64,000 nt of DNA from Streptomyces sp. QL37 (GTDB taxonomy: Bacteria; Actinomycetota; Actinomycetes; Streptomycetales; Streptomycetaceae): positions 1 through 64,000 of the forward strand of contig NZ_PTJS01000001.1 of NCBI RefSeq assembly GCF_002941025.1, in the 5' to 3' direction. The position numbers and the translations under genes are program-made. Shown in pieces: positions 39,337 through 64,000 of this stretch (its first letter is position 1; each line of letters starts with the position of its first letter). Below the pieces are notes generated by a model. That model was given only the letters and a program-made list of their open reading frames with translations, was not told the origin of the DNA and searched no databases.

Positions 39337-40113
39337 TCAGTTCACCACCGGTTCCGCGAGCAGGACTTCGACGCCGCGGGTGCGCAGGGCGCTCACCTGG
39401 TCCGGGTCCGCCGTCGCGTCGGTCACCAGGGTCCAGCCCGGCTGCCAGGGAGCCCAGGCGTGAAAGGGGGCCCTGCCCAGCTTGGCCGCGTCCGCGAGGA
39501 CGTACACCCGGCGCGAACGGCGGGCCATGAGCTCCTTGAGCCTGATCTGCTCCGCGCCCGCCTCGCAGATGCCGAGCTCGGGTGAGACACCGTCGGTTCC
39601 GAGGAACGCCGCGTCGAAGGTCATGCGCTCGAGGGCGGCCTCGGTCAGTGGCCCGACGAATGCGTGACTGAGCGGCCGGTAGTGGCCGCCCAGGCAGGTG
39701 ACGTGCACGCCTTCGGCTCCCCCGAGTTCGAGCACCGCCGACAAGCTGGGCGTCACGACGGTCAGATCGTCCCTCCCGCCGTGGAGTGCGCGGGCGAGTG
39801 CGGCGACCGTGGAGCCCGCGTCGAGCAGCACCGTCGCGCCCGGCGCGACGTGGGTGGCCGCGAGGGCCGCGATGGCCCGCTTGGCCTCGGGGGCCTGTGC
39901 CGTACGCCGGTGGAGCGGGGCCTCGGGTGGTGCCATGGCGCCGCCGTAGGTACGGGCGAGGCGTCCGTCGGCGGTGAGCCTGGCGAGGTCACGGCGGATC
40001 GTGGACGGGCTCACCACGAACCGCGTGCTGAGTTCGTCGACCCCGGCGAGCCCGCTCTCCTGGGCCAGGGCGACGATGGTTTCGCGCCGGGCGCGTGCGG
40101 CTGCGCTGGTCAT
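39337..40113 (-). CDS. DeoR/GlpR-family transcriptional regulator
   Basis: 258 residues. N-terminal HTH (RRETIVALAQESGLAGVDELSTRFVVSPSTIRRDLARLTADGRLARTYGG, about 8-57) and the DeoRC sugar-phosphate-sensing domain from about 75 (LLDAGSTVAALARAL, DAAFLGTDGVSPELGI, YVLADAAKLG). These repressors usually respond to a phosphorylated intermediate of the pathway they control. Last gene of the acid-sugar operon, its ATG overlapping the stop of the PdxA-type gene (ATGA). The perfect palindrome at 42488-42504 upstream of the operon is its likely operator. Confidence 0.9.
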   Translation of the reverse strand: MTSAAARARRETIVALAQESGLAGVDELSTRFVVSPSTIRRDLARLTADGRLARTYGGAMAPPEAPLHRRTAQAPEAKRAIAALAATHVAPGATVLLDAGSTVAALARALHGGRDDLTVVTPSLSAVLELGGAEGVHVTCLGGHYRPLSHAFVGPLTEAALERMTFDAAFLGTDGVSPELGICEAGAEQIRLKELMARRSRRVYVLADAAKLGRAPFHAWAPWQPGWTLVTDATADPDQVSALRTRGVEVLLAEPVVN

Positions 40114-41162
40114 CGGTGCCTTTCGGTGGCGAGTGCGACCGCCTGCCGGAGCGCCTCGACCATGCTGTCTCCCCGGGCGGTGCCGGTTCCCGCTATGTCG
40201 AAGGCGGTGCCGTGGTCGACGGAGGTGCGTATGACGGGGAGTCCGACCGTGACGTTGACGCCGTTCTCGATGCCGAGGACCTTGACCGGGGCGTGGCCCT
40301 GGTCGTGGTACATCGCCACGATCAGATCGTAGTCGCCGCGGGCCGCGAGGAAGAACGCGGTGTCGGCGGGGAGCGGGCCCCGGGCGTCGATGCCGTCGGC
40401 GCGCAGCGCGGTGATCGCGGGGACGATCTTCGACTCCTCCTCGCCGTTGCCGAAGAGGCCGTTCTCGCCGGCGTGGGGGTTGATGCCGCACACGCCGATG
40501 ACCGGCTCGGGGGCACCGGCACGGACCAGGGCTTCGTGGCCGCGGCGCACGGTGCGCTCGACGAGCGGCGGGTCGATCCGGTGTACGGCGTCGAGCAGGC
40601 CGAGGTGCGTGGTGACGTGGATGACGTTGAGGCCGGGTGTAGTGAGCATCATCGACACCTCGTCCACGCCGGTGAGTTCCGCGAGCAGTTCGGTGTGCCC
40701 GGCGTAGGTGTGTCCGGCGAGTCGCAGGGCTTCCTTGTTCAGGGGTGCCGTGCAGATCGCGTCGACTTCGCCACGCACCGCGAGTCGTGCGGCCTCCTCC
40801 ACATAGCGGTAGGCGGCTTCGCCCGCCTCGGCGGAGAGCCGGCCCCAGGCCAGATCCGCGGGAAGCAGGTCCAGGTCGACGACGTTCACTCGTCCCGGGG
40901 TCCAGTCCGCCTGACCGGGGCCGGGGACGGCTACGACGGTGTCCTCACCGCCGACGAGCACGGCGGCCTGCCTCAGCCTGCGGGCGTCACCGATGACGAG
41001 GGGGCGGCACCGGAGCACGGTGTCAGGGTCTCCGAGCGCCGCCATGACGACTTCGGGGCCGATCCCCGCCCCGTCCCCCATGGTCACGGCGACCAGCGGG
41101 CGGCGGTCGGGGGGCGGCGTGGTCGTGCGGGCGAGGCCGGGGGTGTGCTCGGCGGGGTTCAT
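40110..41162 (-). CDS. pdxA: PdxA-family dehydrogenase (PdxA2, 4-phospho-threonate/erythronate dehydrogenase)
   Basis: 350 residues. VAVTMGDGAGIGPEVVMAAL (about 24-43) is the PdxA start; AGHTELLAELTG, THLGLLDAV, GINPHAGENGLFG and MYHDQGHAPVK carry the three metal-binding histidines and the substrate loop. In vitamin B6 synthesis PdxA oxidises 4-phosphohydroxythreonine. The PdxA2 branch instead oxidatively decarboxylates 4-phospho-D-threonate or erythronate and is encoded next to a DUF1537 kinase, exactly as here, where the kinase gene lies directly upstream with an ATGA overlap. I therefore favour the catabolic role. Confidence 0.88.
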   Translation of the reverse strand: MNPAEHTPGLARTTTPPPDRRPLVAVTMGDGAGIGPEVVMAALGDPDTVLRCRPLVIGDARRLRQAAVLVGGEDTVVAVPGPGQADWTPGRVNVVDLDLLPADLAWGRLSAEAGEAAYRYVEEAARLAVRGEVDAICTAPLNKEALRLAGHTYAGHTELLAELTGVDEVSMMLTTPGLNVIHVTTHLGLLDAVHRIDPPLVERTVRRGHEALVRAGAPEPVIGVCGINPHAGENGLFGNGEEESKIVPAITALRADGIDARGPLPADTAFFLAARGDYDLIVAMYHDQGHAPVKVLGIENGVNVTVGLPVIRTSVDHGTAFDIAGTGTARGDSMVEALRQAVALATERHR

Positions 41163-42421
41163 CGCGGTCCTCCGTCGGATGTGTGCGGTGTCTGCGGTAC
41201 TTCGTGGCCGGGCTGTTCGCGCAGGGCGCCCACCATGCGCACGAGGGAGTCGGTGCCGCCGAAACTTCCGGGGCGGGTGACGACGCCGCGCCCGTCCGCC
41301 GTCCGGCAGAGCACGGCGCCGTGGTGCACCTGGCCGACCGGCAGCAGCGAGGTGACGGCGAGTTCGTCCAGGAGGCTGCGGGCGGTCTCTCCGCCGGTGA
41401 GGACGAGGTCGGCGTCTTCGGGCAGGAGCCGGGCGACGGTGCGGGCGAGGGCCCGGGCCAGATGAGGGGCGGCCGAGGGGTCGGCCGCCGGGGTGGGCGC
41501 GATGCTGAACACGAGGACCGGGGCGCGGCCCGGGACGGTCGGGGTGACGGCGGCCGGGTGGCCGGCGTCGGGATGGGCGAGCAGGGACGCGGCGTGGAAG
41601 ACGAGGTGGTGGGCGCCTCGCCGCGTCAGTTGCGCGATCTGCGCACGGGCGCCGGGGTGCGCGGTGCCGACGACGACCACGACGGGGCGTGGTCCACCGC
41701 GGGGACGGCCGGGGTCCGCGCGGTCTTCCGCCGGGGCTGACAGCCGTCCCAGGGCCGCCGCCATGCCGCCTGAGCCGATGGTCCGCACGGTCTCCGGCAG
41801 TCGGAGCAGGGTCTCGGCGACGGCGTCCAGGTCGGCGTCGGTCTCGCCGTCGCAGATCATGGCCGCTCCATCGGCGAGTCCGGAGCGCAGGCGGTGTTCG
41901 AGGTGCGGGAGGCCCGCGCGGATCTCCGTGAGAGGTATGACGGTCGCGGGGGCTCCCAACGTCCGGGCCACGGAGCGGGGCGGCGGTCCGGGCTCCGCGT
42001 GCCAGGCGTCGGTCAGGTGAAGGGGCACACCACGGAGGTGTACGACGCCGTCGCGGACGGTCCGGCCGGCGGCCGGCAGGGCCATCGCGACGACGAGACC
42101 GTCCGCGCCGGCCGCGAAGGCCGAGGTCTCGGCGGCGAAATGACCACGGAGCAGCGAGTCGCTCTTCTTGAGCAGTCGGACGCCGCCCGCCCCGTGCCGC
42201 CGGACCGCCTGTGCGACGAGCCCTGACGCCTGGGTGACGGTGCGTCTGCGCGTGTCGAGGTCGGCCACCAGGGCCTCCCCCGGCGGTGGGGTTGCGGCCG
42301 GGGCGAGTACGAGGTTCCGGCAGGACGGCAGCACGGAGGCGCACTCGGCCGCGCCGGACAGGTCGTCCGCCAGCACGACGAGGGGTGGACAGGTCCTCCG
42401 GGCCAGCAGGTCGTGCGGCAC
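41159..42421 (-). CDS. Four-carbon acid sugar kinase (DUF1537), first gene of the acid-sugar operon
   Basis: 420 residues. N-terminal substrate domain with LADDLSGAAECA (about 17-28) and LKKSDSLLRGHF (the KxDSxLRGH motif), C-terminal nucleotide domain with VVVVVGTAHPGARAQI and LVLTGGETARSLLDEL. This is the threonate/2-oxo-tetronate kinase family; with the downstream PdxA-type enzyme it would phosphorylate D-threonate or a related acid sugar at C4 and lead to dihydroxyacetone phosphate. GTG 42419-42421 has a GGGGGGCGG ribosome site; an ATG 36 nt upstream (42457) is an alternative. Confidence 0.85.
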   Translation of the reverse strand: MPHDLLARRTCPPLVVLADDLSGAAECASVLPSCRNLVLAPAATPPPGEALVADLDTRRRTVTQASGLVAQAVRRHGAGGVRLLKKSDSLLRGHFAAETSAFAAGADGLVVAMALPAAGRTVRDGVVHLRGVPLHLTDAWHAEPGPPPRSVARTLGAPATVIPLTEIRAGLPHLEHRLRSGLADGAAMICDGETDADLDAVAETLLRLPETVRTIGSGGMAAALGRLSAPAEDRADPGRPRGGPRPVVVVVGTAHPGARAQIAQLTRRGAHHLVFHAASLLAHPDAGHPAAVTPTVPGRAPVLVFSIAPTPAADPSAAPHLARALARTVARLLPEDADLVLTGGETARSLLDELAVTSLLPVGQVHHGAVLCRTADGRGVVTRPGSFGGTDSLVRMVGALREQPGHEVPQTPHTSDGGPR

Positions 42422-42466
42422 GAGCCGCCCCCCTTTCTCGTTCCGGCGACTCAGCATGGCATCTAT

Positions 42467-42504: not shown

Positions 42505-42603
42505 CACTGTCACCGTCGTGCCGACGGCCGCGGGTCGGCCTCCGAGGCCTGAAGCGCCGTGCGGAATCACCGCAGTTGCCGCCTCCGTGGAAGGGGTCTC
42601 CCG

Positions 42604-43599
42604 ATGTCCACCGCCCATGACATTCGCCTGCCGGGCATTTCCGTCCCGCTGTCCCCCCTGGTACTCGGCACCATGACGTTCGGCGACACCGTCGGCCGCG
42701 CGGATGCCGCCCGTCTCCTGGACATGGCCCTGGACGCCGGTGTCACAGGCGTGGACACGGCGAACGTCTATGCCGACGGCGAGACGGAGCGCATCCTCGC
42801 CGGACTGCTCCCCGCCCGCCGCGACCGCCTGGTCCTCGCCACCAAGGCGGGGATGCCGCACGAGGACCATCAGGGCCACGCTCCGCTGTCCCGCGCCGGA
42901 TTGCGCGCGGCGCTCGACGGCAGCCTGAAGCGGCTCGGCACCGACCATGTCGACATCTTCTATCTGCACCAGCCCGACCACGTCACCCCGGTCGCCGAAA
43001 CCCTGGAGGCGGTGGCGGAGTTCGCCGCCCAAGGACGCATCCGGGCTCTGGGGGTCTCCAACCATTCCGCCTGGCGGATCGCCCATCTCAATTGCGTAGC
43101 GGACGAGTTGGGTGCGCCCCGGCCGGTGATCGCCCAGCAGTTGCACAACCTGCTCGCCCGTCGCATCGAGGAGGAGTACACCGGGTTCACCGCGCACCCC
43201 GCCTCGCGCGGACTGCGCACCATGGCGTACAACGCCCTGGCCGGCGGTCTGCTGACCGGCCGCTACGCCGGTGGCAGGGAACCCGGCGCGGGGCGGTTCG
43301 GTACGTCGCGTCTCGCGGAGGCCTACCACGACCGCTACTGGAACGACGGACTGTTCTCGGCCGTGGCCCGGCTGCGGGCCGTCGCGGACGGCGCGGCGAT
43401 TCCGCTTGCCGCGCTCGCGCTGCGGTGGCTGCTGCACCGGGAGTCGACCGACGCGGTACTGATCGGCTGCTCCGGTCCCGGCCAGTTGCTCGCCAACATG
43501 GAGGCGGCCTCGGCGGGCCCGCTGCCCGACGACGTGCTCGCGGCCTGTGAAGAGGTGGGGACCGAACTGCGCGGTCCCATGCCTCCGTATCACCGCTGA
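42604..43599 (+). CDS. Aldo/keto reductase
   Basis: 331 residues, a complete TIM-barrel AKR. GVDTANVYADGETERILAGLL gives the catalytic Asp and Tyr, VLATKAGMP the Lys, YLHQPDHVTPV the His, and GVSNHSAWRIA and LIGCSGPGQLLAN the NADPH-binding segments. It reduces an aldehyde or ketone sugar with NADPH. ATG 42604 is preceded by GGAAGGGG. Divergent from the acid-sugar operon and sharing its operator, it probably acts in the same pathway. Its stop is 5 bp from the convergent rhamnosidase gene. Confidence 0.88.
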   Translation: MSTAHDIRLPGISVPLSPLVLGTMTFGDTVGRADAARLLDMALDAGVTGVDTANVYADGETERILAGLLPARRDRLVLATKAGMPHEDHQGHAPLSRAGLRAALDGSLKRLGTDHVDIFYLHQPDHVTPVAETLEAVAEFAAQGRIRALGVSNHSAWRIAHLNCVADELGAPRPVIAQQLHNLLARRIEEEYTGFTAHPASRGLRTMAYNALAGGLLTGRYAGGREPGAGRFGTSRLAEAYHDRYWNDGLFSAVARLRAVADGAAIPLAALALRWLLHRESTDAVLIGCSGPGQLLANMEAASAGPLPDDVLAACEEVGTELRGPMPPYHR

Positions 43600-47869: not shown

Positions 47870-47885
47870 AGGTGGCATGCCACCT
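47870..47885. promoter_or_regulatory. 16-bp perfect palindrome with TGGCATGCCA core (operator 1)
   Basis: AGGTGGCATGCCACCT is fully self-complementary and fills the middle of the 50-bp gap between the fucosidase and GH42 genes, ending 7 bp before the GH42 ATG. The same TGGCATGCCA core recurs in the other divergent region of the island (59409-59418 and, with one change, 59610-59619), pointing to one shared regulator, probably LacI- or GntR-like. Confidence 0.65.
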
Positions 47886-47892
47886 TCGGGCC

Positions 47893-53084: not shown

Positions 53085-55634
53085 TCACGCATCGCGCGAC
53101 CAGTCGCCGGGGACGGTGAACTCCCAGCTGCCGCAGGGCACTTCCCGTACGTCCCGGCCACCGTCCGGGAGCGGCAGCTCCACCCGTGAGGGCACGCCGG
53201 GCGGCAGGGTGACGGTCAGCCTGAACTCGTCCCGGCCCCGGTACCAGGTCACCGCGGCGCGTCCGCGCGGCGTCTCGTACCAGGCGCTCGCCCGGGTGAT
53301 GCCGCCCACGGGGGCGGGCCGGACGACGATGTGTTCGTAGGCGACGGAGTCCGCGGCCTGCCGCAGGCCCGCCAGGGAGACGGTGAGCCATTCCGCGGCG
53401 GCGCCCAGCATGAAGTGGTTCTGCGAGGACCCGCGGGTGGGGCCGTCCCAGCGTTCCGTCAGAGCGGTCGCTCCGTGGGCGAGCTGGTAGCCGTAGCTGG
53501 GGCTGTCCGTGCGGGCGAGCACGTCCGCGACGACGTCGTCGCGGTCGTGCGCGGACAGTACGCGCAGGAGCGCAGGAAGGGCGATCTCACCGACGGTGAC
53601 GTGGTCGTTCTCCGCGCGGATGGCGTCGACCAGATGGGCCAGCACCGCCGGGGCCTCCTCCGCGGGCACCGCGCCCATGTCCAGGGCGAGCGCGTCGCAG
53701 GCCTGGCTGCCGCTGCCGTAGGTGTGGTCGAGCGGGTCGAAGAACCGGGCGTGGAAGGCTTCGGCGATCCGGTCGGCGAGCTGCCGGTGGGCTGCTGCTT
53801 CGTCCGGCCGCCCGATCGCCTCGGCGATGTCGCCCAGCGCGGTGGCGATGCGGTGGTGGGCATGGGTCGCGGTGACGGCCTTGGGGGTGGAGTCGTCGAA
53901 GGTGATCCAGTCGCCCAGACCGTGGTGGAGCAGCAGTCCGTCGTCGGAGCGGGAGTGCAGGTGGCCGAGGAAGCGCAGCATGTCCGGGTAGTGGGCGCGC
54001 AGCGTCGTGGTGTCGCCGTACGTCCGGTACAGGTACCAGGGTGCGAGGACGAGGGCGCCTCCCCAGTTGGCGTCGTCGCGGAACTTGTCCTCGAAGACCG
54101 TGTATTCGGGGGCGATGCCCGGCACGAGTCCTGACGCGGTCTGCGCGTCGGCCATGTCGCGCACGAGTTTGCGGTAGTGGGCGGCGACGTCGTAGCCCTG
54201 CGCGACCGCGGGGAAGACGAGGTGGGTCTGTTCCAGCCAGCCGAGCTTCTCGCGGTGCGGGCAGTCGGTGAGGACGCTGAACATGTTGCTCTGGGCGGCG
54301 CGGTCGATGATCCGGTGGATCCCGTTCAGCAGGTCCGACGAGCAGCTGAAGCCGCCGGCGCGTGCGTTGGCGGTTCGCATCACCTCGCCGTGCACGGTAT
54401 CCGGTGAGGGTGAGCCGGGCAGTTGCTCGACCTGGAGGTAGCGGAAGCCGTGGTACACGGTGGCGGGGGCCCACTCCTCGCCCGCCGGGTCCCCTCGCAG
54501 GGTGTAGCGGTCGTAGCAGGGTGTTCCGGTGAAGCGCTGATTCACCGTCCCGTCCTCGGCGAGCAGTTCGGCCGGGTGGATCGCGACGGAGGCTCCGGCG
54601 GGTCCGGTGACGCGCAGTCGCGGGCGGCCGGCGATGTTCACGCCGAGGTCGAAGACGTGTGTCCCGGGGCGGGGTTCGCTCACCGAGACCGGGGTGACGG
54701 TGTCGACGACCTCGACGGCCGGGTGGGTGCGTGCGTCGAGCGTCACGCCGTCGAGCAGGGTGGGAACGGCGGCGCTCCAGCTCCGGCGGTCGTGGCCGGG
54801 GCTGTTCCAGCCGGGCAGTTCGAGGCGGGCGTCGTGCTCCTCGCCGCCGAACCAGGCGGACAGGGTGACGGGGCCTTCCTCGGTCAGCCAGGTGTCGTCG
54901 GTGACGATCGTGGTGGTCGTGCCGTCCGCGTGGACGGCGGACAGGACGGCGATCGCCCGCGGCCTGCCGTGGTCGATGTGGAGTTTGGCGTAGCGGCCGG
55001 GTACGCGTGGTGCGTGCGCGATGCCGTTGCCGAGGCTCAGCCCCACGGTGTTGTCGCCCGCGCGCAGCGCTCCGGTGATGTCGTAGACCGCGTACAGGAG
55101 GCGCTTGCCGTAGGCGGTGTAGCCGGGTTCCAGCAGGGCACGCCCGGCGCGGACCCCGTTGACGGAAGCCTCGTAGGTGCCCAGGGCGGTCGCGTACAGG
55201 CGTGCCGTGACCGGGGCGGACGGCAGCCGGAAGTCCTTCGCGAGGAGCGGAAGCCGGGAGGTGGTGTCCGGGGCGGTGATCCAGCGGGCGCCCGCCCAGT
55301 CGGATTCCGTGGGCAGGCCGGTCTCCCAGGTGGCGGCGGAGCTCCAGGGCGAGGGGCCGTCGTCGCACCGGGTGCGCACCCGCCACCAGACGCGCCTCCG
55401 GGCGCCCGGCGGCTTGCCGTCGTAGCGGATCCCGGTGCTGCGGGAGTCCTCCACGTCTCCGCTGTCCCACAGGTCGCAACGGCCGGAATCCAGGAGGCCG
55501 GGGCCGGTGGCGGCCTGGATCCGGTACACCCGCTGCCGCCCGCCGGGCCGCCAGGAAAGGTCGGGGTGCTGGTCGTCGATGCCGAGCGGTTCGGTGAGGT
55601 GGGAGGTGCGCAGAGTGTGCGGTGCGGTCGTCAT
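53085..55634 (-). CDS. Alpha-L-rhamnosidase (GH78), copy 2
   Basis: 849 residues with the same plan as copy 1 but low identity: ATGPGLLDS and WWRVRTRCDDGPSPWSS (Fn3-like), GTYEASVNGVRAGRALLEPGYTAY (beta-sandwich), DCPHREKLGWLEQT (457-470) with the catalytic Glu462, and ATALTERWDG with the base. The REKLGW form of the acid motif is typical of a distinct GH78 subgroup, so the two rhamnosidases probably attack different linkages. Intracellular. Its ATG overlaps the stop of the DUF1537 kinase gene (ATGA), tying it directly to the branched-acid module. Confidence 0.92.
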   Translation of the reverse strand: MTTAPHTLRTSHLTEPLGIDDQHPDLSWRPGGRQRVYRIQAATGPGLLDSGRCDLWDSGDVEDSRSTGIRYDGKPPGARRRVWWRVRTRCDDGPSPWSSAATWETGLPTESDWAGARWITAPDTTSRLPLLAKDFRLPSAPVTARLYATALGTYEASVNGVRAGRALLEPGYTAYGKRLLYAVYDITGALRAGDNTVGLSLGNGIAHAPRVPGRYAKLHIDHGRPRAIAVLSAVHADGTTTTIVTDDTWLTEEGPVTLSAWFGGEEHDARLELPGWNSPGHDRRSWSAAVPTLLDGVTLDARTHPAVEVVDTVTPVSVSEPRPGTHVFDLGVNIAGRPRLRVTGPAGASVAIHPAELLAEDGTVNQRFTGTPCYDRYTLRGDPAGEEWAPATVYHGFRYLQVEQLPGSPSPDTVHGEVMRTANARAGGFSCSSDLLNGIHRIIDRAAQSNMFSVLTDCPHREKLGWLEQTHLVFPAVAQGYDVAAHYRKLVRDMADAQTASGLVPGIAPEYTVFEDKFRDDANWGGALVLAPWYLYRTYGDTTTLRAHYPDMLRFLGHLHSRSDDGLLLHHGLGDWITFDDSTPKAVTATHAHHRIATALGDIAEAIGRPDEAAAHRQLADRIAEAFHARFFDPLDHTYGSGSQACDALALDMGAVPAEEAPAVLAHLVDAIRAENDHVTVGEIALPALLRVLSAHDRDDVVADVLARTDSPSYGYQLAHGATALTERWDGPTRGSSQNHFMLGAAAEWLTVSLAGLRQAADSVAYEHIVVRPAPVGGITRASAWYETPRGRAAVTWYRGRDEFRLTVTLPPGVPSRVELPLPDGGRDVREVPCGSWEFTVPGDWSRDA

Positions 55635-57058
55635 GTCCCGGGCTCCCCGCGTGGGTCGGTGGTCAGGTCGATGGCGCCGGTCCGTCCGGCGACCCGGTCG
55701 AAGATGTCGACAGGGCCGGCCTGCCCTCCCTTGAGGAGGAGCGACACCCCGTCGACGTGCGGGTCGTCGCAGGTCAGGCGGCACATGGCCGCGCCGGGAG
55801 AGAGCAGGGTGTCGATCTCGGCCGCTCGGGCGCCCAGCCGGTCCGTCACCCGGCCCGCCGTATCCCCGCCGACCACCACCACACGGCGCACGCCGCCGTC
55901 GGCCACGGCGGTCCGCACGGCGTGGGCGAGGCTGTCGCCGAGCGTGTCGCGGGGGTCGGTGCCGGGCTCGTCCCGGTGGCCGGCGGGCAGGGCGTGCACC
56001 ACCACGCCGGGCGCGTCCGTGGCCAGGGAGCGCAGCACCGCGTCGCGCAGCCCGGCCAGCGCGGCGGGCGAGGTGTCGCAGCCGTCCGACGGGTCAACGG
56101 GGATGGGCACGGTGGCCCATCCGTGTTCCGTCGCCCGGCGTATCTGGGCCGTGGTCCGGGCGGCGCGGCTGCCGGAGACGACGATGACGCGGCCGGGCCC
56201 GGGTGCGCCGTAGGGCTCGGTGGTCCCCGTTCCGTTCAGCAGTTGTCCGACCGCGAGGCTGAGACCGCCGGAGCCCAGGGCGAAGAGGGGGGACGGGCCG
56301 CCGGTCAGGGCCAGTCGGGCCGCGTACCGGGCGTGCTCACACGTCAGGGCGTCGAGGACGACGATGCCGGGGCCGTCCCCGGTCGTCGCGTCGTAGCGGC
56401 GCCGCGCCCGGTGGAACGGCAGCTCGTAGGCCGTCAGGTCGAAGGAGGCGACGGGCAGTGCCGTCTGCCCGGTGAGGTGCAGCACCAGGTCGGATTCGCC
56501 CATGGGGGTCACCGGGTGACGGGACATGGTGGGCTGTCGGTCGAGGCGGTGGACGCGGCCGTCGTCGTCCCGGGCGAAGTGGTGACCGAAGGCCGTGTAC
56601 CGCCCGAATTCGGGCTGCGCGGCCAGCAGCGGGACGGGCACCGCCCCGAAGACCTCCCGGCCGGCCTCCGCCGCGCGCCCGAGGCTTCCCCGCACGGGCG
56701 ACGAGTCGGCGGTGGAGCACATCTTGTACTGCACGAAACCCGCTCCGGTCTGCCGCAGCGCCTCCAGCGCGGGGCGGATCTCGTCGGCCATGCGTTCGGT
56801 GGGGAGCGAGCGGGCGACTCCGGCCACCCCGACCACGTCGTGCCCGCTCCGGCCGGCGGCGGCCGCCGCGGCGTCGCGCCCGAAGTGCAGCACGCCGCGC
56901 AGGCCGGCCCGGTGGAACTGGGCGAGGGCGTCCGTGGATCCGGTGACGTCGTCGCCGTAGAAGGCCACGCGAGGGGCCTCCGGGGGATCGGGCACGCCGG
57001 TCCTGCGCGTGCGGTCGGGGTCCGAGGGCGTGCCACCTGACGTGGGCGTGCCCGTCAT
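55631..57058 (-). CDS. DUF1537 acid-sugar kinase next to the RuBisCO-like gene (OiaK-like)
   Basis: 475 residues. N-terminal VAFYGDDVTGSTDAL (35-45) and QYKMCSTADSSPVRGSLGRA substitute for the KxDSxLRGH motif of the other kinase; the CST-DSSP form is characteristic of the group that is encoded with RuBisCO-like proteins. The C-terminal domain has RVIVVSGSRAARTTAQI and VVVGGDTAGRVTDRL for ATP. By analogy with the 3-oxo-isoapionate kinase (OiaK) it would phosphorylate a branched or linear oxo-acid sugar for the RuBisCO-like enzyme. 4-bp overlaps on both sides. Confidence 0.85.
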   Translation of the reverse strand: MTGTPTSGGTPSDPDRTRRTGVPDPPEAPRVAFYGDDVTGSTDALAQFHRAGLRGVLHFGRDAAAAAAGRSGHDVVGVAGVARSLPTERMADEIRPALEALRQTGAGFVQYKMCSTADSSPVRGSLGRAAEAGREVFGAVPVPLLAAQPEFGRYTAFGHHFARDDDGRVHRLDRQPTMSRHPVTPMGESDLVLHLTGQTALPVASFDLTAYELPFHRARRRYDATTGDGPGIVVLDALTCEHARYAARLALTGGPSPLFALGSGGLSLAVGQLLNGTGTTEPYGAPGPGRVIVVSGSRAARTTAQIRRATEHGWATVPIPVDPSDGCDTSPAALAGLRDAVLRSLATDAPGVVVHALPAGHRDEPGTDPRDTLGDSLAHAVRTAVADGGVRRVVVVGGDTAGRVTDRLGARAAEIDTLLSPGAAMCRLTCDDPHVDGVSLLLKGGQAGPVDIFDRVAGRTGAIDLTTDPRGEPGT

Positions 57059-58335
57059 GCGCGTACTCCGCCGAACCGCTCCAGGGCCAGGGCGAGCGAA
57101 GGGTCGCGGGCCGCCCGGTCGGCCAGGGGTTCCCCTTCGGCGGCCGCCCGCCACGCCGAACGCATGGCGGCGACCCCGGCCGCGGGTCCTGCCGGGTGGG
57201 CGTGGATTCCGCCGCCGGCGAGGACCAGCAGATCCGTCGTGCCGGTCAGCTCCAGGGTGCGGTGGGCGAGGCCCGGCCACTGCCCCGACGACAGCACGGG
57301 CAGGGCCTCGTACCCGCCGAGGAACGGGGTGCGCATCGCCCGCACGGACGCGACGACGTCTTCGTCCTTCTCGTAGAACTTGCTCGCGATGCCGCCGACG
57401 TGCAGCTGGTCGACGCCGGCCAGCCGGGCGAGTCTCTGGAAGACCAGCGGTCCCAGGCCGATCTGCGGGCTGCGCAGCAGCGCGCCGCTCATGGCCCGGT
57501 GTCCGTGCACCGGCAGCGCCGCGCGTTCGCGCAGGTGCGCGACTGCCGCCAGTCCGACGGTCTGCACACACACCATGACGCAGGTGCCGCCCGCCGCGAG
57601 CACCAGGTCGTGGTTGGCTTCGAGGCGGCCTATGTCGTCGGTGATGTTGAAGGCGTACATGGTGCGGCGGCCGGTGCGGTCCGCGGCCCGGTCGAGTTCT
57701 TCCGTGACGACGGCGACCCGGTCCCGCAGCGGGGCGTGCGGCGGATTCCCGGTCAGCTCGTCGTCCTTGATGAAGTCGATTCCGGCCGAGGCGAGTTCGC
57801 GTACCAGGGCGCGGAGTGCGTCGAGCTGGAGTCCGACACCTGGCTTGATGATCGTGCCGATCAGCGCACCGTCGGGTGCGCCCATCAGGCGCCGGGTCCC
57901 CGTCACGCCGAAGGCGGGTCCGGGGTAGCGTCCGGCGAAGGCGGCGGGCAGTTCGAGGTCGACGAGGCGTACGGCGGCCAGTTCGCGCAGCTCGAAGAGG
58001 TTGCCCGCGACCGCCGCCAGCAGATTCGGCATCGAGGGGCCGAAGTTGCGCAGCGGGAAGGCGATCCGGACGCGCGCGCGGTGGGGTCTCGGGCCGGCGC
58101 CCGGGGGTCTGGTCGCTCCGGGCAGGGGCGTGTGCCCCGCGTCCGGGAGCTCCGTCACATCGAGGACGGTGGCCCCGAACCGGTGGCGGAGGGCTTCGCT
58201 CTCGCCGGGGACCCGTACGAACGTACCGGTGGACTGCTCGTTCGCCAGCACCTCGGCCGCCCGCGCGGGCGGTAACCAGCTCTCCACGTCGTAGACCGCC
58301 ACGACCTGTTCGTCCGTCATGCCTGCCTCACTCAT
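57055..58335 (-). CDS. RuBisCO-like protein (form IV, OiaX/OiaT-like)
   Basis: 426 residues, shorter than true RuBisCO large subunits. The metal/carbamate motif is kept: FIKDDE at 188-193 (carbamylated Lys190, Asp192, Glu193), with GTIIKPGVG (160-168) where the first catalytic Lys is kept but the second Lys of KPK is Gly. HGHRAMSGAL (277-286), HVGGIASKF with the loop-6 Lys319, SSGQWPG (349-355) and GGGIHAHPAG (374-383) follow. It therefore should bind Mg and an enediolate intermediate but not fix CO2. Beside a DUF1537 kinase, the best precedent is decarboxylation or transcarboxylation of 3-oxo-isoapionate 4-phosphate (OiaX/OiaT). ATG 58333-58335 has AGAGG upstream. Confidence 0.85.
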   Translation of the reverse strand: MSEAGMTDEQVVAVYDVESWLPPARAAEVLANEQSTGTFVRVPGESEALRHRFGATVLDVTELPDAGHTPLPGATRPPGAGPRPHRARVRIAFPLRNFGPSMPNLLAAVAGNLFELRELAAVRLVDLELPAAFAGRYPGPAFGVTGTRRLMGAPDGALIGTIIKPGVGLQLDALRALVRELASAGIDFIKDDELTGNPPHAPLRDRVAVVTEELDRAADRTGRRTMYAFNITDDIGRLEANHDLVLAAGGTCVMVCVQTVGLAAVAHLRERAALPVHGHRAMSGALLRSPQIGLGPLVFQRLARLAGVDQLHVGGIASKFYEKDEDVVASVRAMRTPFLGGYEALPVLSSGQWPGLAHRTLELTGTTDLLVLAGGGIHAHPAGPAAGVAAMRSAWRAAAEGEPLADRAARDPSLALALERFGGVRA

Positions 58336-58353: not shown

Positions 58354-59364
58354 TCAGCGCGCCGGATCCAGGAGGAACTTCATGACGTCGCTCCCCCTGT
58401 CCAGCGCGTCGAAGGCGTCCTGGGTCCCGGTCAGCGGCGCAGGGTCCGCCGTGATCAGGGGGCGGACGTCGAGCGTGCGGGCCGCCACGGCGCGGGCCGC
58501 CGCGCGGAAGTCCTCGGCGGCGTACAGGGAGGAGCCCTTGATCCGGATCTCCTTCAGCACCAGGGGGTCGAGCACGGCGCGCACCGCTTCGGGGAACATC
58601 GGCAGGACGACCACGGTTCCCCGGGACCGGCACAGGGCCAGTGCCTCGTCCACGCAGGCCTGGTGGCCGGAGGCGACGACGACGGCGTCGAAGGCGTCGG
58701 CCCGGTCCTCCCCGGTCACCGCCCCGTCGCCCGCGTCTACGGTGCGGCAGCCCGTGGCCCGGGCGGCGAGCCTCAGTGCGGGCCTGCGCACGTCGGTGAC
58801 CAGGACGTCCTCGGCCCCGTGCAGCCGGGCGACCGCGGCCGTCAGATGGCCGATGGTGCCCGCCCCGAGGACGGCGAGGCTCGTGCCGTGACGGACACCC
58901 GCCGCACGGACGGTGTGCCAGGCGACCGCCGCAGGCTCGACCAGGGCGCCCTCGGCGTAGGTCAGGTCGTCGGGCAGCGGCACCAGGGTGCTCGCCGGCA
59001 GCGCCACGTACCGGCTGAGGAGCCCCGGCAGTCCTGCGCCCGGAAGCCTGCGGTGCGCGCACAGGTGCGACAGCCCCTGTTCGCAGCGCCCGCACCGTCG
59101 GCAGGACGCCAGAGGCAGCACGGCCACCCTCGCGCCGGCCGGGACCGCACCGTCGGTCGCGGCCACCACCACCCGGCCGGCGCCTTCATGGCCGAGGACC
59201 ACCGGGGGCGCCCGGAACGGATGCCGGCCGCGGAAGGCAGCCACGTCACTGCCGCACAGACCCACCGCCCGCATCTCCACGAGCGCTTCTCCCCCACCCG
59301 GCCGGGGGTCGGACGATTCCTCGATTTCGATCCTGCCGACCTGCTTCAGCACGGCACTGCGCAT
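58354..59364 (-). CDS. Zinc-dependent alcohol/sugar-acid dehydrogenase (MDR family)
   Basis: 336 residues. Catalytic zinc ligands in GLCGSDVAAF (Cys about 37) and GHEGAG (His about 60), four structural-zinc cysteines in CRRCGRCEQGLSHLC (about 87-101), and NAD-binding VLGAGTIGHLTAAVARL. Family members oxidise polyols and sugar acids (threonine, sorbitol, galactitol type). As first gene of the operon with the RuBisCO-like protein and kinase, it probably makes the oxo-acid that is then phosphorylated. ATG 59362-59364 with GGAGGG was chosen; an in-frame GTG 15 nt upstream is an alternative. Confidence 0.88.
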   Translation of the reverse strand: MRSAVLKQVGRIEIEESSDPRPGGGEALVEMRAVGLCGSDVAAFRGRHPFRAPPVVLGHEGAGRVVVAATDGAVPAGARVAVLPLASCRRCGRCEQGLSHLCAHRRLPGAGLPGLLSRYVALPASTLVPLPDDLTYAEGALVEPAAVAWHTVRAAGVRHGTSLAVLGAGTIGHLTAAVARLHGAEDVLVTDVRRPALRLAARATGCRTVDAGDGAVTGEDRADAFDAVVVASGHQACVDEALALCRSRGTVVVLPMFPEAVRAVLDPLVLKEIRIKGSSLYAAEDFRAAARAVAARTLDVRPLITADPAPLTGTQDAFDALDRGSDVMKFLLDPAR

Positions 59365-59408
59365 CAGCCCTCCGCTCACTCCCCGCCTCTCTCCCTCGCA
59401 ATCACTGC

Positions 59409-59520: not shown

Positions 59521-59549
59521 TTGACGCCCTTCACCACCACGCCTAGCGT
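59521..59549 (+). promoter_or_regulatory. Sigma-70-like promoter of the GH127/GH28 operon
   Basis: -35 TTGACG (59521-59526) and -10 TAGCGT (59544-59549), spacer 17 bp. Transcription would start near 59556, 50 nt before ATG 59605. Confidence 0.6.
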
Positions 59550-59604
59550 CTTTGCCGGACGCCTGCATCACTGTTCCTTCGGACTCCGAGACGGCGTGAA
59601 AATT

Positions 59605-61326
59605 ATGACTGGCATACCAGCAACCCTCCTCCTGGAAGAACGCGCCGAGCTGGCCATGAACGCTGTCGTCGGCCTGGCGGACCCCGACCTCGGCGGCATC
59701 CCCTTCTTCGGCGCGGACCTTCTCGCCGAACCGGCCGAACTACGCCACGGCGACTGGGACTACGGCTCGAGCCACGGCAGGCTCACGGACGCCGCGGTCC
59801 TGGCCGGGCAGATGACCGGAGCCTCGTCGTGGGGCGTCGTCGAGGCGATGTACAAGAAGACGCTCCTCGCCCTCATGGGTGAGGACGGGCTCACCCGGCG
59901 GCGCAGCCATCCGCGCGGCCACTGGGAGCCGCACGCCAACCTGATCGACCAGCGGGCCACCCTGCTCGCACTCACCACCTGGTACCAGCAGACCGGCGAC
60001 GAGGAGGTGGCGGCCGCCGCCGACCGGCTGGTGGCCGCGCTGCACCGGATCGCGGTCAAGGAACGGGACGTCTGGTACTACCCCGCGTCGGAGTACACGG
60101 ACAGGGGCTGGCCGTCGGCCAACGCCGTGCAGCTCCACCTGGCGCCGGACCCGGCGTCCTTCTGCGGACGCCTCATCATGCCGCTGCTGCGGTGGCACCG
60201 GCTTACGGGGAACGAACAGGCCTGGGAGCTCTGCGGCTGGTTCACCCGCCTGATCACCGAGTACAGCGGCGTGTTCCTGCCTGACGGGTCGTTCAATCCG
60301 GCGCTCGCCTACCGCAGCGGGCACTTCCACACCCGTCTCGGCACCCTGGACGGCATCGCCCGGTACGCGCGGGACTCCGGCAACCACGCGCTGACCGAGT
60401 TCGTGCGTCGCTCCTTCGACTGGGCGCTGAGCCGGTGCACAGCCTTCGGCTGGACGCCGGGCGACCTGGCCGGTCAGCGCTTCGAGCACGAGACCTGCTC
60501 CCTGGTGGACCTGATCGCCATCGCGGGCACACTGGCCGGTGCGGGCCACGAGCGCTACTGGGGCGTCCTGGAACGCTTCCTGCGCGGACACCTGACGTCC
60601 GCTCAGCTCCTCGACGTCTCCTGGGTCCGTTCGGCGCCCGGCCGGGAGCTCGACGAACCGGGGTGGGTCACCCGTCACCGGGTCGGCGAGCGGCTGCGCG
60701 GCGCGTTCGCCGGCTACGGCGCCCCCAACGACTACGTCTCGGACAGCGTCCTCGGCCGGGGCCATACGGCCGACGTGCAGGCCTGCTGCGTGGGCTCGGG
60801 GGTGCGCGGCCTGTTCACCGGCTGGTCCCTCGCGGTTACCGGCGACGCACGGCTGGTCCGTGTCAACCTGCTGCTCAACCGCGGCAGCAGATTCGTGAAC
60901 GTACTCAGCCATCTGCCCCACACCGGGCGGGTGGACCTCGACATCCGCGAGGACTGTCGCGAGCTGCGCCTGCGTGTCCCCGACTGGGCGGGCTACGCCC
61001 ACGTCCGGGTCGTCCGCACCGCGGCCGGAGGCCCCGAACACACGCGGCAGGGCAGCGAGCCCGGCGTGTGGGCGCCGGACGGCTCACTCTCCGTTCTCGG
61101 TCCACGCGCCGGTGAACGCGTCACCGTCACCTTTCCCCTGCCGGAGACCGTCACCGACGAGACCGCCGCCGGACGCGACTACCGAGTGCGCTGGCGGGGC
61201 GACGACGTCATCGGCATCGAACCGGAAGGAAGGACCCGACCCATGTACCCGCACCGCACCCCTGCGCCGCAGGCACCCCTGCGTGAGCGCGCCCTGCACG
61301 TTCCCACGAAGGAGTGGTCCTGGTGA
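59605..61326 (+). CDS. GH127-like beta-L-arabinofuranosidase (six-hairpin glycosidase)
   Basis: 573 residues with an (alpha/alpha)6 barrel and a C-terminal beta-sandwich. The zinc-thiolate catalytic set of GH127/146 appears intact: Glu296 and Cys298 in HETCSLVDLIA and the Cys pair 394-395 in VQACCVGSG, matching the family's ETC and CC motifs. The usual CCPPN is replaced by CCVGS, so the enzyme is divergent. The family removes beta-L-arabinofuranose, including from rhamnogalacturonan II. No signal peptide. ATG 59605 is the best start, though it has a poor ribosome site and the TGGCATACCA site (59610-59619) would lie inside codons 2-5; ATG 59656 is an alternative. Confidence 0.75.
   Translation: MTGIPATLLLEERAELAMNAVVGLADPDLGGIPFFGADLLAEPAELRHGDWDYGSSHGRLTDAAVLAGQMTGASSWGVVEAMYKKTLLALMGEDGLTRRRSHPRGHWEPHANLIDQRATLLALTTWYQQTGDEEVAAAADRLVAALHRIAVKERDVWYYPASEYTDRGWPSANAVQLHLAPDPASFCGRLIMPLLRWHRLTGNEQAWELCGWFTRLITEYSGVFLPDGSFNPALAYRSGHFHTRLGTLDGIARYARDSGNHALTEFVRRSFDWALSRCTAFGWTPGDLAGQRFEHETCSLVDLIAIAGTLAGAGHERYWGVLERFLRGHLTSAQLLDVSWVRSAPGRELDEPGWVTRHRVGERLRGAFAGYGAPNDYVSDSVLGRGHTADVQACCVGSGVRGLFTGWSLAVTGDARLVRVNLLLNRGSRFVNVLSHLPHTGRVDLDIREDCRELRLRVPDWAGYAHVRVVRTAAGGPEHTRQGSEPGVWAPDGSLSVLGPRAGERVTVTFPLPETVTDETAAGRDYRVRWRGDDVIGIEPEGRTRPMYPHRTPAPQAPLRERALHVPTKEWSW
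59610..59619. promoter_or_regulatory. TGGCATACCA operator-like site (operator 3)
   Basis: Differs by one base from TGGCATGCCA and lies 50-60 bp downstream of the predicted start of the GH127 transcript, overlapping the chosen start codon region. With operator 2 about 200 bp away it could support a repression loop across the divergent promoters. Confidence 0.45.
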
Positions 61327-62732: not shown

Positions 62733-64000
62733 CGGGCCCGACGCACGCCCCCGGCGCGGCGGGGGTGCCCCGGGATCCTTGGCGCGAGGCCGACGCGGTC
62801 GTCGCCCGCGTCGTGCCGCCCCGGTTTCCCGGCCGTACCTTTCCGGTGACCTCGTTCGGAGCGATCGGCGACGGCCGGACCGACTGCACGTCGGCGCTCC
62901 GGCGCGCGGTGGCCGCCTGCCACTCGGCGGGGGGCGGGCGGGTCGCCGTTCCTCCGGGGGTCTTCCTCACCGGCCCCGTGCGGCTGCGCAGCCATGTCGA
63001 ACTCCACCTGGAGGAGGGCGCCACGCTGCGCTTCAGCCAGGACCCGGATCGTTACCTGCCGCCGGTGCTCACCCGTTTCCAGGGCGTCGAGTGCTACGGC
63101 TACTCCCCGTTCGTCTACGCCCGGGACGAGCGTGACATCGCGGTCACGGGTCCCGGGACCCTGGACGGCCAGGCCGACGAGGAGCACTGGTGGCCGTGGT
63201 CGGGCCAGGAGGAGTTCGGCTGGCGGCCCGGTATGCGTCACCAGGAGGAGGACTGGCCGGACCTGTGGCGACAGGCCGAGGACGGTGATCCGGTCGAGCA
63301 GCGGGTGTACGCCGACGGGCGGTACTTCCGGCCGAACTTCATCGAGTTCCAGCGGTGCCACGGCGTCCTGATCGAGGGCGTGACGATCGTCCGGTCCCCC
63401 ATGTGGGAGATCCACCCGGTGCTGTGCGGCAACGTCACCGTCCAGGACGTCGTCATCGACAGCCCCGGACCCAACAACGACGGCATCGACCCCGAGTCCT
63501 GCCACGACGTCGTGATCCGGCGCTGCGACATCACGGCGGGGGACGACTGCATCGCCATCAAGTCGGGCCGCGAGGCCGACGGGCGCCGCGTGGCGACGCC
63601 CAGCGAGAACATCGTGATCGAGGACTGCGTGCTGCGCCACCGCTACGGGGCGGTCACGCTGGGCAGTGACATGACCGGAGGCATCCGCAACGTGTACGTA
63701 CGCCGCTGCCGCGTCGGCGGCCCCGGCCTCTACTTCGGCCTCTACATCAAGACGAACTCGGTACGCGGCGGCTTCGCCGAGAACGTCCATCTCGCGGATC
63801 TCACGGTCACGCACCTCACCAAGGAGTTCATCACCTGCGACTTCGAGCGGGGAGAGGGGGACGCGGGGGCGTACCCGCCTCGGGTACGGAACGTCAGCGT
63901 GAGCCGGACGACGGTTGAGCGGGCGCGCCGCGGTGTCCTGGCCCGCGGCTACGCGCACGCTCCCATCCGTGAACTGCGGCTGGAGGAATGCCACTTCGTG
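62729..64000 (+). CDS. GH28 family protein without signal peptide, 3' end beyond the window
   Basis: 424 codons, open to the last base. TTG 62729-62731 overlaps the previous stop as TTGA and has GGAGG 8 nt upstream; an in-frame GTG at 62765 is the alternative. It is a paralog of the preceding GH28 (TSFGAIGDGRTDC, LRSHVELHLEEGATLRF, SPMWEIHPVLC) with NND 249-251 and DD 272-273 (GDDCIAIKSG) kept. In the third motif GHG is replaced by R-Y-G (Tyr306), and in the fourth the Arg of R-x-K is Tyr339 with only Lys341 left. No leader, so it is intracellular. It is either altered in specificity or weakly active. Confidence 0.85.
   Translation, partial: MTGPTHAPGAAGVPRDPWREADAVVARVVPPRFPGRTFPVTSFGAIGDGRTDCTSALRRAVAACHSAGGGRVAVPPGVFLTGPVRLRSHVELHLEEGATLRFSQDPDRYLPPVLTRFQGVECYGYSPFVYARDERDIAVTGPGTLDGQADEEHWWPWSGQEEFGWRPGMRHQEEDWPDLWRQAEDGDPVEQRVYADGRYFRPNFIEFQRCHGVLIEGVTIVRSPMWEIHPVLCGNVTVQDVVIDSPGPNNDGIDPESCHDVVIRRCDITAGDDCIAIKSGREADGRRVATPSENIVIEDCVLRHRYGAVTLGSDMTGGIRNVYVRRCRVGGPGLYFGLYIKTNSVRGGFAENVHLADLTVTHLTKEFITCDFERGEGDAGAYPPRVRNVSVSRTTVERARRGVLARGYAHAPIRELRLEECHFV

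Follow-up and report, generated by a model that had tools for sequence, protein, structure and literature searches.

A RuBisCO-like protein as a candidate enzyme of aceric acid breakdown in a probable rhamnogalacturonan-II island of Streptomyces sp. QL37

The window, i.e., the whole 64,000-nucleotide stretch of DNA that was analysed from this soil actinobacterium, contains the left part of a gene island of ca. 80 kb (contig positions ca. 39–121 kb, the right end being set by judgement), which is very probably a locus for the uptake and degradation of rhamnogalacturonan-II (RG-II), a pectin of great complexity from plant cell walls. Within it, an operon comprising a zinc MDR dehydrogenase, a RuBisCO-like protein (RLP), and a DUF1537-family kinase (kinase B) probably serves the breakdown of aceric acid, one of the rare sugar acids in RG-II, rather than apionate, a reading to which we assign a probability of roughly 0.58. 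Gene content, gene order, position in the tree, conserved catalytic motifs, and genome co-occurrence were observed, and from them we infer every substrate and reaction. Among the matches listed in the literature searched there was no description of aceric acid catabolism after release from RG-II; in the retrieved portions of these papers aceric acid appears only as a component of RG-II or as a substrate of a hydrolase or a galactosidase. If the reading is correct, an RLP would close this gap, and the RuBisCO superfamily would gain a substrate. The genes are as follows.

39337–40113, minus strand: DeoR-family regulator (PF00455/PF08220), start ATG at 40113, in the ATGA that it shares with the PdxA-like gene
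40110–41162, minus strand: PdxA-family dehydrogenase, PdxA or PdxA2-like (PF04166, 341 bits; TIGR00557 pdxA, 352 bits, above the cut-off of 290)
41159–42457, minus strand: DUF1537-family acid-sugar kinase A (PF07005 and PF17042; 92 bits with the D-threonate kinase model, whose cut-off is 450)
42559–43599, plus strand: aldo-keto reductase (PF00248), a possible but unconserved partner
43605–46316, minus strand: GH78 alpha-L-rhamnosidase (PF17389, 396 bits, plus matches to four other GH78 domains)
46328–47842, minus strand: GH29 alpha-L-fucosidase family (PF01120, 249 bits)
47872–50088, plus strand: GH42 beta-galactosidase family (PF02449, 267 bits)
50031–53033, minus strand: GH2 beta-galactosidase family (PF02836, 332 bits)
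53085–55634, minus strand: GH78 alpha-L-rhamnosidase (PF17389, 296 bits), start ATG at 55634 in a 4-bp overlap with kinase B
55631–57058, minus strand: DUF1537-family kinase B, OiaK-like (PF07005, 166 bits), ATGA overlap with the RLP gene
57055–58335, minus strand: RLP (PF00016, 204 bits), candidate decarboxylase of phosphorylated keto aceric acid
58354–59379, minus strand: zinc MDR dehydrogenase (PF08240/PF00107), 18 nt upstream of the RLP gene
59521–61326, plus strand: divergent GH127-like protein (GH127L) with E-x-C and CC motifs, transcribed divergently from the MDR-RLP-kinase operon
61314–62732, plus strand: GH28, alpha-galacturonidase/rhamnogalacturonidase-like (PF00295; BT4155 model, 317 against a cut-off of 800)
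62729–64000, plus strand: second GH28 (PF00295), continuing to contig position 64081

All the glycosidase, RLP, DUF1537 kinase, and dehydrogenase genes named in a preliminary description of this DNA are present in the window; Pfam identifies two GH78, GH29, GH42, GH2, and two GH28 genes, the zinc MDR dehydrogenase, the RLP, and the kinase. Its "GH127-like" gene appears real as judged by the codon pattern, but the likeness to GH127 is only distant. The 4-bp overlaps that it reported hold on direct reading of the sequence: kinase B and GH78 are joined by ATGA at 55634/55631, and so are the RLP and kinase B at 57058/57055, while the gap between the MDR and RLP genes is 18 nt. Two sets of genes go unmentioned there. 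The first is a second DUF1537 kinase with the PdxA-family and DeoR genes (42457–39337, both junctions ATGA); the PdxA-family dehydrogenase reaches 328 bits against the D-threonate-4-P dehydrogenase model, whose cut-off is 583. The second is the aldo-keto reductase at 42559–43599, with no match in the loci of 80 RLP relatives at the thresholds used, which speaks against its part in the aldose-to-ketose step discussed below.

Past the window, the island comprises GH95, GH141-like (matching 5mqp, BT_1002, E 8e-12), GH127, third GH28, pectinesterase, apiosidase-domain, and BNR genes. The preliminary description had suggested looking beyond position 64000 for a GH140 apiosidase and an importer; the island has uptake genes and a PF13204 apiosidase-domain gene (contig positions 70352–71881, 74.8 bits), though the sole PDB match of the latter's product is 4n0r, a putative glycoside hydrolase. 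Glycosidases for the RG-II side chains form one cluster with genes for pectin enzymes and uptake, and the RG-II reading already proposed for the locus is well supported by the genes within and beyond the window. GH137, 138, 139, 142, and 143, which are RG-II families, were absent from the Pfam scans of the island, in which some genes, e.g., 80364–82655, were not included. Since loci for RG-II encode enzymes acting on many different sugars, a single substrate cannot be fixed from the neighbourhood alone.

The preliminary description assigned the RLP to apionate breakdown. The RLP and kinase B would then form an OiaX/OiaK pair, decarboxylating 3-oxo-isoapionate 4-phosphate derived from apiose that the island's apiosidase-domain protein would release; we regard this as unlikely, if slightly less so than the other alternatives. 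The RLP, the sole PF00016 match in the genome (E ≤ 0.001), and kinase B do find their best NCBIfam matches in OiaX (NF042437, 395.6 bits) and OiaK (NF042436, 256.9 bits), both below the cut-off of 700. Six other RLPs also scored under 700 (405–549 bits), and since the three ApnO-associated ones among them miss the OiaX cut-off too (L066, 498; L071, 470; L063, 549 bits), the miss by the window RLP proves little. Apionate breakdown would also agree, as would the aceric acid reading, with the conserved KDDE, HxR, loop-6 Lys, and phosphate-site Ser motifs (carbamylation, metal, and phosphate), assigned by RuBisCO residue numbers; in the KPK motif, Gly takes the place of the second Lys. It would further agree with the apiosidase-domain protein, whose relatives, at 54–56%, occur in all five Kribbella RLP loci, but its only PDB match, mentioned above, counts the other way. 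Assignment to RuBisCO type III or MtnW was rejected (TIGR03326, 270 of 497 bits; TIGR03332, 174 of 514 bits).

The tree argues against apionate. The RLP belongs to a 45-row clade (bootstrap/SH-aLRT 100/100) apart from most apionate-linked RLPs, its rows being actinobacterial by title with the exception of L036, titled Planococcus. An ApnO-like gene is found in one of the 44 other loci within the clade versus 14 of the 36 outside it, which leaves the window RLP outside the group holding 14 of the 15 ApnO-associated loci. Clustering with methionine-salvage or other RLP groups, which the preliminary description had named as refuting its reading, applies in part: the protein is no methionine-salvage RLP, but it lies outside the mostly apionate-linked group. 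Clade members and ApnO-linked RLPs differ near the catalytic motifs (A108/T, L174/T, M282/G, L356/Q); however, the ApnO-type letters are also those of the RLPs from Bacteroidota, including one encoded on the same contig as a GH127 that exceeds the aceric-hydrolase cut-off, and therefore these four positions do not track the proposed substrate.

Apionate also appears to be provided for elsewhere. At C1:3.71 Mb of the same genome, Dak1/Dak2 kinase, RpiB, TIM, xylose-isomerase-like, and ApnO-like genes lie in a row (Pfam), preceded by GntR and MFS genes labelled from their translations; no RLP or DUF1537 kinase was seen in this operon, and its gene order is kept in Streptomyces NBC_01669. This set presumably corresponds to the RLP-free apionate pathway (ApnO, OiaC, LerK, LerI, EryI), making it, by gene content, a complete-looking RLP-free apionate operon. 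The one ApnO-like gene that stands out in the genome belongs to it (E 6.4e-47, followed by a match at 0.013); in the window locus there is none within 142 kb, and none was found at E ≤ 1e-20 in the five Kribbella genomes carrying this RLP type. In Microbacterium Leaf288 and Jiangella asiatica, an apionate operon and a GH127-RLP-kinase unit share one contig, with ApnO ca. 19 kb and ca. 23 kb from the RLP, respectively. An apionate role of the RLP is left unsupported by its clade, the OiaX/OiaK scores, the separate RLP-free operon, and the ties to BT1003-type GH127 described below.

The aceric acid reading draws on these ties. BT1003 is described as an aceric acid hydrolase (PMC10850190; PMC5698469), its distant homologs acting on other sugars (PMC5698469), and the GH127 family contains other activities besides this one. 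In 35 of the 44 clade loci other than the window, tblastn with the GH127 of L012 as a query detected a GH127 at 450 bits or more, placed immediately upstream of the RLP and in the same orientation in 31 of them (aligned ends 2–72 nt apart) and just after the kinase in the remaining four; the 36 RLP loci outside the clade had none within the stretches examined. The nearest solved structure for the RLP-adjacent GH127 is BT_1003 (5mqo) in both members tested, ahead of the next GH127 structure (634 vs 346 and 494 vs 334 bits). With NF049879, the model for aceric acid hydrolase in NCBIfam, all eight actinobacterial members tested scored 619–786 bits, and only the GH127 of Echinicola (1099 bits), found on the same contig as an RLP-kinase-PF01177 unit ca. 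21 kb away, passed the cut-off of 950; eight of the nine BT1003-type proteins scored are thus below it. Among 199 genomes sampled around Microbacterium Leaf288, such a GH127 (E ≤ 1e-120) occurs in six, and the same six carry an RLP at 59–63% identity, directly adjacent in five and ca. 1.25 kb away in one, while four further genomes with RLPs at 49–52% have no such GH127. The RLP and DUF1537 kinase beside a BT1003-type GH127 in Microbacterium are a named pair that makes the question directly testable.

In the lineage of the window (two Streptomyces, five Kribbella) no BT1003-type GH127 was found (best score 315 bits); what suggests aceric acid in this lineage is the evidence from the relatives and the presence of GH127L. 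The latter reaches 14.5 bits with PF07944 (cut-off 24.9) and has no NCBIfam match at 1e-3, hence none to NF049879. Its comparison with the GH127 profile gave an hhalign probability of 93%, the E-x-C and CC motifs are kept, and Foldseek gave 19 matches (E ≤ 0.001), all of them to structures of GH127, GH146, or beta-L-arabinofuranosidase, but at TM-scores of ca. 0.3 and from a model of mean pLDDT 48.5. GH127L is present in six of 16 genomes (Streptomyces NBC_01669 and five Kribbella), all without a BT1003-type GH127, which occurs in eight of the ten genomes lacking GH127L. On this pattern, GH127L is a candidate replacement for the aceric acid hydrolase.

Aceric acid is 3-C-carboxy-5-deoxy-L-xylose (PMC8218411). 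In the proposed route, chain B would be stripped by the GH2, GH42, GH29, and GH78 enzymes, and aceric acid would be freed by an enzyme of the GH127 type (GH127L in the window). BT_0993, a GH2 of Bacteroides thetaiotaomicron, is reported to take galactose off aceric acid (PMC11739564); the window operon also includes a gene of family GH2, and a GH2 match is found in 21 of the 44 other clade loci. The aldose would then be converted into the 2-ketose CH2OH-CO-C(OH)(COOH)-CHOH-CH3, which corresponds to 3-oxo-isoapionate with CH(OH)CH3 replacing CH2OH, by a PF01177 protein in most relatives and here perhaps by the zinc MDR together with a reductase. Two observations weigh against this: loci with ApnO can contain PF01177 as well (L075 and, within the RLP clade, L035), and a search of the QL37 genome, run without a positive control, found no such partner.

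The MDR adjoins the RLP also in Streptomyces NBC_01669 and in four of the five Kribbella loci (L009 has no MDR beside it, a point against the MDR in the aldose-to-ketose step). It might instead produce a 3-oxo acid from another branched sugar acid, e.g., a 2-carboxy-alditol, for kinase B and the RLP, with the placement in a pectin island reflecting loose co-regulation. Besides the 18-nt spacing in the window, five Bacillota loci favour this: they hold RLP-kinase-MDR units, accompanied in every case by a gene of the class II aldolase family (checked with Pfam in L038 alone), and match none of the window's glycosidases, so that the MDR variant may serve another acid. The window RLP, however, falls in the clade of the BT1003-type GH127 and outside the Bacillota group, and its RG-II-type surroundings recur in Streptomyces NBC_01669 and Kribbella; we consider this second alternative improbable.

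In the aceric acid route, the OiaK-like kinase would next phosphorylate the CH2OH group of the 2-ketose, the RLP would decarboxylate the product to 5-deoxypentulose 1-phosphate, as OiaX does with 3-oxo-isoapionate 4-phosphate, and an aldolase would split it into dihydroxyacetone phosphate and acetaldehyde. The separate operon at 3.71 Mb would take care of apiose. For the aldolase step the island offered no gene, and tblastn with relatives over 142 kb gave no class II aldolase. RLPs either decarboxylate or transcarboxylate/hydrolyse 3-oxo-isoapionate 4-phosphate (PMC6302742), and both this duality and the missing aldolase would suit an OiaT-like hydrolysis of phosphorylated keto aceric acid, in which phosphoglycolate and 2,3-dihydroxybutanoate would arise rather than CO2 and 5-deoxypentulose phosphate, but the only apiose-pathway RLP model matched is the decarboxylase OiaX (a one-sided comparison made without an OiaT model), and we hold hydrolysis to be quite improbable. 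More tentatively, at somewhat below even odds, the RLP would represent a new function in the RuBisCO superfamily, a decarboxylase of phosphorylated keto aceric acid acting with an OiaK-like kinase, the substrate being made in two ways, by a PF01177 protein as an aceric acid isomerase in most of the actinobacteria concerned and in Bacteroidota, and by the zinc dehydrogenase in Streptomyces and Kribbella, the latter two with a new, highly divergent GH127-like aceric acid hydrolase. As far as could be found, such a route would have no described predecessor in the catabolism of this RG-II sugar. On the aceric acid reading, not every RLP-DUF1537 pair should be annotated as apionate catabolism.

Of the known systems, the closest is the OiaX/OiaK branch of apionate catabolism reportedly described by Carter et al. 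in 2018, in which an RLP, 3-oxo-isoapionate-4-phosphate decarboxylase, acts with a DUF1537 kinase. Like it, the window RLP adjoins a DUF1537 kinase, keeps the catalytic motifs, and presumably performs the same type of reaction; unlike it, the window pair reaches 396 and 257 bits against 700-bit cut-offs, lacks ApnO alongside, and belongs to a different clade whose neighbours point to aceric acid. The RLP-free apionate operon has its complete-looking copy in the same genome, at C1:3.71 Mb, separate from the window locus. The RG-II degradome of B. thetaiotaomicron, reportedly described by Ndeh et al. in 2017, presumably has the GH families 78, 2, 28, 95, and 127 in common with the island, whose GH141-like gene matches BT_1002; it differs from the island, which is actinobacterial, combines ABC uptake with monosaccharide catabolism genes, and lies in a genome in which no BT1003-type GH127 was found. 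Finally, 5-deoxyribose salvage, which starts from 5-deoxyribose and for which the opening of the abstract mentions no RLP step, resembles the last steps proposed here, through 5-deoxypentulose 1-phosphate and its aldol cleavage (PMC6079011).

Every gene named in the preliminary description is confirmed as present in the window, which makes up the opening 64 kb of a contig of 8.77 Mb, with a G+C content of 71%. The gene for the RuBisCO-like protein (RLP, 57055..58335, minus strand) is separated by 18 nt from a zinc dehydrogenase gene (MDR, 58354..59379, minus strand) and overlaps a DUF1537 kinase gene (55631..57058, minus strand) by the 4-bp ATGA, as does the kinase gene with that of a GH78. 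The same overlap links a second DUF1537 kinase gene (41159..42457, minus strand) to a PdxA-like gene and the latter to a DeoR gene; the three form one operon (window 39337-42457), which resembles those of D-threonate/erythronate catabolism, but with low NCBIfam scores of the kinase. A PdxA-like gene is also found near RLPs in two other loci (L058, L070). Rhamnogalacturonan II (RG-II) as the target of the island, as originally proposed, is well supported by the gene set within the window and past it, the latter comprising (contig coordinates):

64062-65741, hexapeptide-repeat protein
65687-67744 (L002:3688-5745), 685-aa protein without a family match
67802-69376, solute-binding protein
69378-70484, DUF5605 protein
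70352-71881, DUF5060-apiosidase-domain-DUF5605 protein
71770-72876, BNR-repeat protein
before 76136, oligopeptide-type ABC ATPase and second permease (read from translations)
76136-77137, oligopeptide-type ABC permease (Pfam)
77156-79168, oligopeptide-type ABC binding protein (Pfam)
ending at 80169, DHDPS-family gene
83983-85560, pectinesterase
86703-88634, GH127
88642-91440, GH95
92679-94763, GH141-like protein
96204-97766, third GH28
98123-99490, enolase-superfamily dehydratase
up to about 121 kb, rhamnose mutarotase, further beta-helix protein, second enolase-superfamily protein and CoA-transferase

GH137, GH138, GH139, GH142, and GH143, which we take to be RG-II families, have no match among the island genes scanned with Pfam. 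Neither Pfam nor NCBIfam nor the PDB gives a match to the 685-aa protein. Relatives of it occur in loci of RG-II type in Streptomyces NBC_01669, Kribbella, and Occultella, and it possibly represents a new RG-II enzyme family. The GH127 at 86703-88634 was rejected as an aceric acid hydrolase, its nearest structures being beta-L-arabinofuranosidases (391 bits vs 289 for BT_1003); its sole NCBIfam match is the aceric acid hydrolase model (384 bits). The island occupies the stretch about 40-120 kb from the contig end, possibly in a chromosome arm, and an alginate-lyase-domain protein (PF05426) is encoded immediately to its left (window 37218-38474).

Aceric acid is a better candidate than apionate for the substrate of the RLP, with a probability that we put a little below 60%. 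The role in apionate breakdown ascribed to this protein at first finds no support in the QL37 genome, owing to a separate RLP-free operon, the position of the RLP in the tree, and Kribbella genomes devoid of ApnO, a marker of the apionate pathway. The operon, at 3.71 Mb of contig C1, codes, according to Pfam, for a Dak1+Dak2 kinase, RpiB, a triosephosphate-isomerase family protein, a xylose-isomerase-like protein, and an ApnO-like protein (PGDH_C with a KARI_N-like match; 95% identity between QL37 and Streptomyces sp. NBC_01669), and is preceded by GntR and MFS genes (labels read from translations). We take it to be the RLP-free apionate route via 3-oxo-isoapionate decarboxylase, reportedly described by Carter et al. 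(2018).

Marker proteins were scored in 80 loci, the best 80 of at least 518 confirmed RLP relatives. The window RLP, which shares 88% identity with its counterpart in Streptomyces sp. NBC_01669, belongs to a clade of 45 rows with 100/100 support in a careful tree of 82 rows, from which six of the 88 (L044, L065, L077, L086, L087, and L088) are omitted for long branches or a stop-shortened frame; the same 45 rows group together in a quick tree of all 88 (SH-aLRT 96). Support is 92/81 for the 14-row subclade of the window and 84/44 for the seven Streptomyces/Kribbella rows. The clade is actinobacterial by title with the sole exception of L036, titled Planococcus, whose record carries a high-identity actinobacterial-type GH127-RLP-kinase locus, perhaps by mislabelling, contamination, or transfer. 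An ApnO-like gene is found near the RLP in 14 of the 36 loci outside the clade vs one of the 44 inside (L035, with 71% identity to the ApnO of QL37), and at E<=1e-20 ApnO is absent from all five Kribbella genomes sharing the window-type RLP. The scores against the models of OiaX and OiaK, the RLP and kinase of the apionate pathway (396 and 257 bits, both cut-offs being 700), also speak against apionate, but weakly, three ApnO-associated RLPs likewise scoring below the OiaX cut-off (470-549 bits). A methionine-salvage enolase or a carboxylase can be dismissed, the model scores being far below the cut-offs. At E<=1e-60 the RLP occurs in one of 394 genomes sampled from its own family, that of QL37, and is thus rare there.

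The link to aceric acid comes from GH127 proteins closest to BT1003, an aceric acid hydrolase according to PMC10850190 and PMC5698469. Of the 44 other clade loci, 35 have a GH127 that reaches 450 bits or more against the one of Microbacterium Leaf288; it immediately precedes the RLP, on the same strand, in 31 (aligned ends 2-72 nt apart) and comes after the kinase in four. In the 36 loci outside the clade no such GH127 is present within the stretch examined around the RLP. The nearest solved structure to the GH127 beside the RLP is BT_1003 (634 bits vs 346 for the next; 494 vs 334 in a second example), and by sequence this protein is different from the usual arabinofuranosidase. In NCBIfam the clade GH127 matches the aceric acid hydrolase model alone (619-786 bits in all eight actinobacterial members tested); the cut-off of that model, 950, is exceeded by the GH127 of Echinicola (1099), located on the same contig about 21 kb from an RLP-kinase-PF01177 (Asp/Glu racemase family) unit.

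Among 199 genomes sampled around Microbacterium Leaf288, with relatedness uncorrected, ten carry the RLP (E<=1e-60), and the six in which it shows 59-63% identity are exactly the six with the GH127 (E<=1e-120), at least two of which (G406, G409) were already among the RLP relatives above. The two genes are directly adjacent in five and about 1.25 kb apart in one, while the four genomes with RLPs of 49-52% identity lack a BT1003-type GH127. Two genomes, those of Microbacterium Leaf288 and Jiangella asiatica, have on one contig both the GH127-RLP-kinase unit and the RLP-free apionate operon, the operon being adjoined by apiosidase-domain and GH42 matches and, in J. asiatica, showing no MFS match. 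ApnO lies about 19 and 23 kb from the RLP, respectively, and the sharing of one region by the two systems argues for different sugars as their targets. Six of seven actinobacterial ApnO loci have the decarboxylase-like and kinase genes of the operon alongside; the seventh stops at a contig edge. According to PMC11739564, galactose is split off aceric acid by BT_0993, a GH2 enzyme of B. thetaiotaomicron; the RLP operon of the window contains a GH2 match, as do 21 of the 44 other loci of the clade, and these share at least the family with BT_0993. In the open literature searched, we found no account of how aceric acid is catabolised, or of an RLP that uses it.

The BT1003-type GH127 is not located beside the RLP in the window, NBC_01669, or the five Kribbella loci, nor was it found elsewhere in the QL37 genome (best match 302 bits) or in the genomes of the other six (best 315 bits, in the arabinofuranosidase range). 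Its replacement is probably a divergent GH127-like protein (59521..61326, plus strand), found in six of 16 genomes searched (NBC_01669 and the five Kribbella), where it adjoins the RLP operon; eight of the ten genomes without it carry the BT1003-type GH127. Among 396 genomes sampled across the phylum it occurs in QL37 only. It retains the E-x-C and CC motifs of its GH127 relatives, and the probability of its match to the BT1003-type profile is 93%; the top Foldseek matches of its AlphaFold model (five sequences) are GH127/GH146 structures, a weak support in view of the mean pLDDT of 48.5. Nine clade loci lack the BT1003-type GH127, three of them (L029, L040, and L047) also the GH127-like protein in the stretch examined, which in L029 and L040 stops shortly past the RLP; the L029 genome has a 602-bit GH127 elsewhere, and the best in the L047 genome scores 226 bits. 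The MDR gene adjoins the RLP in the window, NBC_01669, and four of five Kribbella loci, L009 being without it.

A PF01177 protein, a candidate isomerase, is encoded in 35 of the 44 clade loci in the stretch examined around the RLP; a search without a positive control found no relative in the QL37 genome. This protein of about 220 aa (L014:3951-4601, L082:12627-13289) accompanies RLP-kinase pairs in 49 of the 80 loci, mostly ApnO-less, of actinobacteria, Bacteroidota, Paenibacillus, and others. A xylose-reductase/xylitol-dehydrogenase-like route via the aldo-keto reductase of the window is possible, but the reductase has no match near related RLPs. RLP-kinase-MDR units of Bacillota (L038, L043, L045, L049, and L051) comprise a class II aldolase family gene, some also transporter-like genes, and no match to the glycosidases of the window; they possibly represent an RLP pathway for another imported branched acid.

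Aceric acid is 3-C-carboxy-5-deoxy-L-xylose (PMC8218411). Its 2-ketose would be CH2OH-CO-C(OH)(COOH)-CHOH-CH3. This is the 3-oxo-isoapionate skeleton with CH(OH)CH3 replacing CH2OH. PMC6302742 describes RLPs from Agrobacterium radiobacter and Xanthobacter autotrophicus as decarboxylases, or transcarboxylases/hydrolases, of 3-oxo-isoapionate 4-phosphate; given this activity and the likeness of the two compounds, the kinase and the RLP could act on the ketose. The window RLP retains the KDDE, HxR, loop-6 Lys, and phosphate-site motifs. Near the motifs (comparison omitting 10 of the 88 rows) the clade differs from the ApnO-linked group at A108/T, L174/T, M282/G, and L356/Q; seven Bacteroidota-type RLPs compared have mostly the ApnO-type letters, so these positions do not settle the substrate. 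For aceric acid we infer, at every enzymatic step, a route in which an OiaK-like kinase would phosphorylate the ketose, an OiaX-like RLP would decarboxylate the product to a 5-deoxypentulose 1-phosphate, and an aldolase would split the latter. With relatives as tblastn queries, no class II aldolase came up within 142 kb. The proposed last step is comparable to the aldolase split in 5-deoxyribose salvage (PMC6079011).
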